In this document: piece after piece, positions 60,987 to 62,623 of the stretch | How positions within the stretch are numbered: position 1 is the first letter of the stretch | Layout of the letters: every line of letters starts with the position of its first letter | Assembly: GCA_937922045.1 (NCBI GenBank) | Contig: CAKZXA010000051.1 | Span: 1-64,000 of the forward strand | Direction of reading: 5' to 3' | DNA: 64,000 nt | DNA from: an uncultured Acidimicrobiales bacterium | GTDB taxonomy: Bacteria > Actinomycetota > Acidimicrobiia > Acidimicrobiales > SZUA-35 | Position numbers and translations under genes: made by a program | Notes under the pieces: model-generated | The model's input: only the letters and a program-made list of their open reading frames with translations | Told to the model about the DNA's origin: nothing | Database searches by the model: none

Positions 60987-60992
60987 TACGAT
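60987..60992 (+). promoter_or_regulatory. Candidate -10 box (TACGAT), leaderless
   Basis: TACGAT begins 14 bases before the GTG at 61001. Confidence 0.5.
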
Positions 60993-61000
60993 CAGGCGCC

Positions 61001-62623
61001 GTGAGCGCATATGTAACTGAGGAGTTCACTTCAGAGGAACGAGACGTCCTCCGACGGTATTTTACCAACCTCGATCGTCCTGTATTTGCTCTGGTCAACC
61101 TGCCTGAGGTCGTCAAGGGTGCTTTGTTCGCCCGTTACTCTCGGTCACCCAAGAGCCTGCGTCGATTGTTCCTCGACGAGTTTGTAGGCGAGCTCGATAT
61201 TCAGGGCGACGAAACGATTGACGCCACGGTTGGCCTCAGCCAAGCTGAGGCGCTCTATGAGCGAATATTTGTCGAATACGGCGACGATTCGGTCGCCCAG
61301 CTCGGTGGCATTCATCTCGCTTGCGAACAGGCATCCAACCTGCTGACCAAGATTCTCGAGTGGGGGAGGGTTGCCGCCTATCTCGAACAGTCGACGCGCT
61401 ATATCGCCTACGACAACCGCACCAACGGACGCTATCGGTACTACCGCGATCCTGAGGTACTCGGCTCAGACCTTGGCACCCGCTACGTCGGCGACCTCGA
61501 CCGATTGTTCGATGCCTACCGAGGCCTGTTCAGCACTGTGCATGACCACGTGCGACGAGTCACGCCCAAGAACGAGAAGGACAGCGATTTCGTCTACCGA
61601 TCGGCGGTCAAGGCCAAGGCGCTCGACGCCGTCCGGGGCATCCTGCCGGCGGCCGCCCAGTCAAATGTTGGCATTTACGCAACGGGGCAAAGCTACGAGC
61701 AGATGCTCATTCGAATGCGGGCCGATCCTCTGCCCGAGGCTCGACTCTATGCCGATCTGATGCTCGAGGAGCTACGTAAGGTCATCCCTTCGTTCGTGAA
61801 GCGCGTCGACATTGCTGATCGTGGTCAGCAAACGAGCGACTACCAGTCGGCCAACCGAGACGCGATGTCAGCGCTAAGCCGCGAGCTGCTGACGCCGCCT
61901 GCTGCCTATGACCAGCAGGAGAGCGTCGAGCTTGTCGATTTTGATCCAGAGGCCGAAATCAAGCTCGTGGCCTCGATGTTGTACCCCTACTCGCATCTCT
62001 CGGAGTCGCAGATCGAACGACAGGCCGAAAAGATGACGGTCGACGATCGGTTGCGGGTGCTGAAGGCATACAACGGTGATCGGCAAAACCGTAGACATCG
62101 GCCTGGCCGGGCCATGGAGCGCCCCTTCTACCGATTCGACGTCCTGGCCGACTACGGAGCCTTTCGAGACCTCCAACGACACCGGATGCTCACGGTCGAG
62201 TGGCAACCGCTGAGTCCGCTTCATGGCTACACCCGGCCGCCGTTGGTGGATGAATGTGGTGAAGCCGCCGTGTTCGACGAAGCAATGCAGCGTTCGGGTG
62301 AGCTCTACGAGGCTCTCTATGAGCGTGGCTTTGTTGCCCAAGCCTCCTATTCGGTGGCGCTGGCCTACCGTGTGCGGTTCAACATGAATCTGAACGCTCG
62401 CTCGGCGATGCATACGCTCGAACTGCGCTCAACCCCACAAGGGCACCCTGCATACCGACGTGTGGCTCAGGTGATGCACAAACAAATCGCCGAAACCGCA
62501 GGTCATCGAGCGATTGCGGCTATGATGTCGTTCGTCAACCATTCTTCAGAAGCGGATCTGGAGCGGTTGGAAGCTGAAAGACGGGCAGAAGCAAAACGGA
62601 CAGGTAGCGCTGTCTCTCCCTAA
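61001..62623 (+). CDS. Two-module ThyX-like FAD-dependent thymidylate synthase homologue
   Basis: A 540-residue protein made of two tandem ThyX-like modules. Module one (about 1-270) has EYGDDSVAQLG, EWGRVAAYLEQSTRYIAYD and QSYEQMLIRMRADPLPEARL; module two (about 310-515) has FRDLQRHRMLTVEWQPL and NLNARSAMHTLELRSTP. Canonical ThyX is a tetramer of about 220-260 residues with an RHRxxSxNExSxRY motif. Here RHR is replaced by WGR in module one, and in module two the Ser/Tyr part after RHR is degenerate, so each half retains only part of the motif. Activity as a dTMP synthase is not assured. GTG start, leaderless. Confidence 0.85.
   Translation: MSAYVTEEFTSEERDVLRRYFTNLDRPVFALVNLPEVVKGALFARYSRSPKSLRRLFLDEFVGELDIQGDETIDATVGLSQAEALYERIFVEYGDDSVAQLGGIHLACEQASNLLTKILEWGRVAAYLEQSTRYIAYDNRTNGRYRYYRDPEVLGSDLGTRYVGDLDRLFDAYRGLFSTVHDHVRRVTPKNEKDSDFVYRSAVKAKALDAVRGILPAAAQSNVGIYATGQSYEQMLIRMRADPLPEARLYADLMLEELRKVIPSFVKRVDIADRGQQTSDYQSANRDAMSALSRELLTPPAAYDQQESVELVDFDPEAEIKLVASMLYPYSHLSESQIERQAEKMTVDDRLRVLKAYNGDRQNRRHRPGRAMERPFYRFDVLADYGAFRDLQRHRMLTVEWQPLSPLHGYTRPPLVDECGEAAVFDEAMQRSGELYEALYERGFVAQASYSVALAYRVRFNMNLNARSAMHTLELRSTPQGHPAYRRVAQVMHKQIAETAGHRAIAAMMSFVNHSSEADLERLEAERRAEAKRTGSAVSP

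Follow-up and report, generated by a model that had tools for sequence, protein, structure and literature searches.

We analysed a 64,000-nucleotide stretch of DNA (referred to below as the window; contig CAKZXA010000051.1, assembly GCA_937922045.1) from an uncultured Acidimicrobiales bacterium, in which an open-reading frame of 540 amino acids encodes a double-length homologue of the flavin-dependent thymidylate synthase ThyX, which we refer to as double ThyX (Table 1). It is a real, conserved ThyX variant and, judging from its residues and from the genomes that carry it, very probably functions as a thymidylate synthase whose active site is composite. A Pfam scan of the protein returned only Thy1 (PF02511), in two stretches and with 115.6 bits against a cut-off of 24.8, and no similarity to ThyA (PF00303). 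When the genome was searched, each half alone was above the Thy1 cut-off (E-values of 2e-15 for module 1, M1, and 3e-15 for module 2, M2), which upholds an earlier interpretation made from the letters alone (the sequence-only reading), namely that the protein is twice the length of ThyX and repeats its architecture. The GTG start is consistent with the aligned homologues. A frameshift or a recent tandem-duplication artefact was ruled out, the modules being far diverged and the arrangement common to many species.

An AlphaFold2 model of the chain (mean predicted local distance difference test score 86.8, predicted template modelling score 0.86) contains the ThyX-type order of elements twice, once per half. 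Its best Protein Data Bank matches in Foldseek were ThyX chains of Thermus and Thermotoga and the uridine/deoxyuridine monophosphate (UMP/dUMP) methylase PolB (4p5b), and among viral structures the best matches were phage LMM01's long thymidylate synthase and an unnamed protein of 461 amino acids, the same length as the Vibrio phage Yong homologue.

Table 1 Features of the double ThyX gene, with positions in the window and residues numbered along the chain (Mtb, Mycobacterium tuberculosis; Tm, Thermotoga maritima; FAD, flavin adenine dinucleotide).
Feature	Position	Strand	Remarks
Double ThyX gene	61001..62623	+	540 amino acids, GTG start; two Thy1 domains
N-terminal region ahead of M1 Pfam match, residues 1-79	61001..61237	+	Conserved LFARYSRS; A44, S47, R48 invariant in 56 sequences
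M1, Thy1 domain, residues 80-264	61238..61792	+	Hidden Markov model alignment to Mtb ThyX 54-227
M1 Ser97	61289..61291	+	Equivalent of Mtb Ser71 (FAD contact from neighbouring subunit); invariant; PMC6514825
M1 degenerate RHR, W121-G122-R123	61361..61369	+	From alignments
M1 YLEQSTRY, residues 127-134	61379..61402	+	Equivalents of Tm Glu86/Ser88/Arg90/Tyr91; E, S, R, Y invariant in 61/61 double ThyX
M1 Arg212	61634..61636	+	Equivalent of Mtb Arg172/Tm Arg147; invariant; lacking in M2
Connecting region between Thy1 matches, residues 265-310	61793..61930	+	Largely helical in predicted model
M2, Thy1 domain, residues 311-499	61931..62497	+	Hidden Markov model alignment to Tm ThyX
M2 intact RHR, R393-H394-R395	62177..62185	+	FAD/dUMP-binding motif; R, H, R in 61/61, RHNR in Bacilli group
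M2 site of missing Ser88/Arg90/Tyr91 loop	62198..62209	+	~5 residues deleted around E400-P403; from alignments
M2 Arg467	62399..62401	+	Equivalent of Mtb Arg190; conserved in actinobacterial group only
M2 Leu475-Arg476	62423..62428	+	Equivalent of Tm Arg174/Mtb Arg199, dUMP-activating (PMC8316439); Arg in 61/61; both invariant in 56-sequence alignment

Division of the ThyX signature between the modules

Neither module carries a contiguous RHR...S.RY signature: RHR lies in M2 and E.S.RY in M1. Around the degenerate motif M1 reads LEWGR, and M2 reads DLQRHR (residues 390-395) followed by MLTVEWQ--PLS. The sequence-only reading was exact on this point, in stating that the first half keeps QSTRY with WGR in place of RHR and that the second keeps RHR without the Ser/Tyr part, the loop of which is deleted in our alignment. 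When M1 and M2 are counted together, the signature FAD/dUMP contact residues are all present on the polypeptide.

We compared 61 double ThyX proteins, 49 of the actinobacterial type (45 actinobacterial sequences including that of the window, three from plasmids of Parabacteroides, Euzebya and Miltoncostaea, and one from a viral contig) and 12 distant members from Bacillus and Paenibacillus plasmids, related viral contigs, Microcystis phage LMM01, Tunturiibacter phage Tunturi_5 and two Vibrio phages. The distant members are ~22-25% identical, and they, like the plasmid members of the actinobacterial type, have the same module order and the same division of residues. In T. maritima numbering, the equivalents of Arg78, His79, Arg80 and Arg174 were found in M2, and those of Glu86, Ser88, Arg90, Tyr91 and Arg147 in M1, in all 61 proteins, and the equivalent of M. 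tuberculosis Ser71 is M1 Ser97 in every one of them. The few invariant columns of a 56-sequence alignment (A2) include S97, E129, S131, R133, Y134 and R212 in M1, and R393, H394, R395, L475 and R476 in M2. On these alignments, each half has given up one set of residues while conserving the other across ~22% identity, and because the residues are invariant in 45 actinobacterial and 12 very distant homologues, the partition is not a product of chance or of pseudogene decay.

A module tree placed all M1 sequences in one clade (support 0.996) and all M2 sequences in another (0.735), although it was built on short, degenerate modules whose shared motif loss may help the grouping; it agrees with one ancient fusion that preceded the split between the actinobacterial, Bacilli and phage lines.

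Thymidylate synthase genes in actinobacterial genomes

In the window's own genome (4.88 Mb, 96.9% complete) profile searches found no ThyA match and no second Thy1 gene, whilst a thymidylate kinase and a thymidine kinase match were present. In this organism the double ThyX appears to be the sole enzyme for dTMP synthesis. Our survey took in 149 actinobacterial genomes, sampled evenly across the phylum. The double gene occurred in 44 of them, from 16 families, with a canonical ThyX beside it in none of the 44; one genome with ~5% contamination (G040) had two double ThyX copies. A ThyA match was found in a single double-gene genome (G124). It is a fragment covering 74 positions and ends a 3.8-kb contig on which clamp-loader-like and dihydrofolate reductase (DHFR) genes are also encoded, so that the contig is phage-like. 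We dismissed this match as a counter-example, since it is a fragment on a phage-like contig and not a host ThyA. ThyA was matched in 34 of the 36 genomes that were without any Thy1 match (Fisher p ~5e-19 against the double-gene genomes, kinship between genomes being ignored). Thymidine kinase had no match in 28 of the 44 double-gene genomes, and these 28 have no recognisable route to deoxythymidine monophosphate (dTMP) other than the double ThyX.

DHFR showed a parallel distribution. It was not found above the cut-off in 43 of the 44 double-gene genomes, the exception being the phage-like contig of G124, with one sub-threshold match in the window's own genome, and it was present in every one of the 15 genomes whose ThyA match was strong, whilst the 36 remaining control genomes tested all lacked it. 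Loss of FolA is a known companion of ThyX (PMC1971073), because ThyX releases tetrahydrofolate rather than dihydrofolate, and the double gene shows this genomic signature of ThyX in replacing ThyA, commonly without a FolA-type DHFR. In family f21, one genome (G137) carries a canonical ThyX with an intact motif instead of the double gene, and in family f16 the genus g21 carries another single ThyX-like gene in its place; this displacement by a single ThyX in both families points to the same job.

The survey also returned thymidylate synthase candidates of other kinds. A single ThyX-like protein of ~290-300 amino acids (L082:2931-3791 and L083:3016-3912 in G039 and G050; also in G009 and G072) has THR-[AV]-FSRNS-x-SSRAIP replacing RHR...S.RY, is the only Thy1 match in its genomes, replaces the double ThyX in genus g21 and scores 55.6 bits with the NCBI thyX equivalog model TIGR02170 (cut-off 87.9); its gene adjoins dapA-like and RNase J-like genes, and in L082 also a dapB-like gene. 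Another 23 actinobacterial genomes (G015, G020, G030, G035, G042 and others) had no Thy1, no DHFR and only a weak PF00303 match (E ~1e-8 to 1e-12, open-reading frames of ~220-570 amino acids), and they may have as their synthase a divergent ThyA-like family able to function in the absence of DHFR. Two genomes (G034 and G067) had neither a ThyA nor a ThyX match, though they are stated to be 96-98% complete.

A putative composite active site

ThyX is an antibacterial target with a textbook active site shared by three identical subunits. In the M. tuberculosis and Helicobacter pylori enzymes, three subunits contribute to one site: subunit A gives RHR and Arg199 (T. maritima Arg174), subunit C gives Ser105, Arg107 and Tyr108 (T. 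maritima 88, 90 and 91), and subunit B gives Ser71 and Arg190 (PMC6514825). In PBCV-1 ThyX two monomers hold an inhibitor that overlaps the dUMP site, one through Gln75 and Arg182 and the other through Ser88 and Gln89 (PMC3498832). Arg174 activates dUMP, and Ser88, Arg90 and Tyr91 assist methylene transfer (PMC8316439). These crystal structures bear out the statement of the sequence-only reading that ThyX sites are formed between subunits, and they lend support to its suggestion that one functional site may be built from both halves. Because the two residue sets come from different subunits of one site, M1 and M2 could complement each other, and since the residues kept match those subunits in the crystal structures, M2 would take the role of A and M1 that of C.

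We hold with high confidence that the double protein is a flavin-dependent thymidylate synthase with composite sites. It would convert dUMP to dTMP with the methylene group of methylene-tetrahydrofolate (CH2-tetrahydrofolate), FAD and reduced nicotinamide adenine dinucleotide phosphate (NADPH). M2 would act as the FAD-holding subunit through RHR and activate dUMP through Arg476, and M1 as the neighbouring subunit that provides the dUMP-binding/lid loop of Glu129, Ser131, Arg133 and Tyr134, in which the serine and arginine would bind dUMP and the tyrosine would form the lid; M1 Ser97 most likely supplies the FAD contact of the third subunit. In the simplest assembly, two double chains would pair to mimic the ThyX tetramer, M2 standing in for A and the two M1 modules for C and B; of the sites in such a dimer, two would be complete composites of M2 and M1 and two would be dead. 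We infer this assembly, its stoichiometry and its activity. Four equivalent sites are impossible with two different modules, and pseudo-222 symmetry is expected instead.

Some observations weigh against this assignment. At M1 residue 95 (61283-61285), the equivalent of T. maritima His53, the actinobacterial group carries Asp, whereas most of the Bacilli/phage group carries His. The Arg190 equivalent lies in M1 in 9 of the 12 distant members, whilst the actinobacterial group has Gln in M1 and Arg in M2, so that either module may play the role of B. The window protein scores 43.6 bits with TIGR02170, below the cut-off given above; with a Bacillus double scoring 100.6 bits and that of Euzebya 63.5, this cut-off is passed by some double ThyX and not by all.

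Other explanations of the double protein can be set against composite-site dTMP synthesis. It might methylate another pyrimidine nucleotide such as UMP, as PolB does, with dTMP coming from elsewhere; PolB demonstrates that the ThyX fold can change its substrate (PMC5954106) and is among the structural matches of our model, yet the genome is without another thymidylate synthase, the majority of double-gene genomes are also without the thymidine kinase route, and related genera swap the double gene for a single ThyX, which leaves this explanation improbable. A different function owing to another thymidylate synthase in the genome was likewise rejected, as none was found. We give marginally less weight still to the idea that each half is a self-sufficient, degenerate ThyX, or that one half is structural or regulatory and the other provides whole sites. 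Partial chemistry is conceivable, given that M2 has RHR and the Arg174 equivalent and M1 the substrate loop, but neither half has the complete set required by classical ThyX, what one half lacks the other has, each set being invariant in very distant homologues, and a non-catalytic half would be unlikely to retain exactly the catalytic residues of one role.

The least probable explanation, to which we attach very little weight, is that the fused protein no longer makes dTMP and serves some unrelated function, a possibility that the sequence-only reading had also raised. The motifs are indeed degenerate within each module and the score is under the equivalog cut-off, but both complementary catalytic sets are strongly conserved, the double gene excludes ThyA and canonical ThyX, and DHFR is absent. 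We looked for a separate canonical ThyX or ThyA and for unconserved pocket residues, and found neither in the genome or among the long homologues, which disfavours the loss.

As a natural fusion with divided catalytic residues, a composite-site double ThyX tells which residue belongs to which role, and, since evolution has presumably eliminated half of the sites, it allows the relation between the four-fold symmetry of ThyX and catalysis to be tested. Automatic annotation that relies on the equivalog model alone overlooks the sole thymidylate synthase that many actinobacteria have. More tentatively, and in our estimation rather doubtfully, an ancient fused lineage may have split the site by duplication, degeneration and complementation to give an obligate half-of-sites synthase, its vacated sites freed for another task (e.g. 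NADPH/folate docking or nucleotide regulation), which would be the only dTMP source of whole actinobacterial classes.

Relation to known proteins and genomic setting

Both modules are predicted to share the fold of the classical homotetrameric ThyX, or FDTS (flavin-dependent thymidylate synthase; PF02511; M. tuberculosis 2af6/3gwc, T. maritima TM0449 1o26, H. pylori 3n3y, PBCV-1 4fzb), which has the same full signature set as M1 and M2 summed, and the same chemistry is expected of the double protein. Classical ThyX consists of four identical chains of ~220-250 amino acids with four equivalent sites, whereas the double ThyX is a chain of ~540 amino acids with two non-identical modules and a split signature. 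PolB (4p5a/4p5b), a UMP/dUMP methylase of polyoxin synthesis with the ThyX fold, differs in being a single module that acts on UMP in an antibiotic pathway, encoded by a second thyX beside the normal one (PMC5954106). The long ThyX proteins of Bacilli and phages differ from that of the window in their low identity and in the His that most of them have at the T. maritima His53 position, and those of Bacilli also in the RHNR of M2 and in an M1 that keeps Arg190.

Annotators at NCBI and of phage genomes name such proteins 'FAD-dependent thymidylate synthase' or 'thymidylate synthase'. The ThyX of Chlamydia, probably a protein of ~530 amino acids, may be a double ThyX as well. Chlamydia trachomatis ThyX is active (Griffin et al. 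2005, as cited in PMC8316439), and chlamydiae are without thyA and folA (PMC3498832, PMC3932018). An uncharacterised domain duplication in the ThyX of most Chloroflexi is described in passages of Valas and Bourne (2009; PMC3224940), and these proteins, likened here by that description only, very likely belong to the same class; the passages concerned contain no motif partition, mechanism or phage and plasmid members. We found no account of a signature split between ThyX halves in the open-access literature. The protein class is known by name; what is new is how the labour is divided and how widely this occurs.

The Bacilli-type doubles that carry RHNR, with one inserted residue, in M2 (L167, L168, L169, L176-L180) lie on 200-kb plasmids and viral contigs, and their carriers are probably phage-plasmids or prophages. 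A Parabacteroides distasonis record labelled as a plasmid (L164, NZ_OY725790.1) encodes an actinobacterial-type double ThyX with 46% identity, which suggests acquisition by horizontal transfer. Plain searches of viral contigs with the window protein and with the Tunturi phage protein led nowhere.

The window's gene sits on its contig (C51) among ordinary neighbours, encoding TatA, TatC, a DSHCT-type helicase, a YegS-C domain protein and a LysM/transglycosylase protein. The best 80 homologous loci in genome contigs share 64-81% identity and are only actinobacterial, chiefly from Acidimicrobiia, and the nearest named relatives are Acidimicrobiales/Acidimicrobiia genomes. Around the start of the gene (60987-61003), TACGAT lies 8 bases upstream of the GTG codon, no clear ribosome-binding site separates the two, and the double ThyX transcript may be leaderless.
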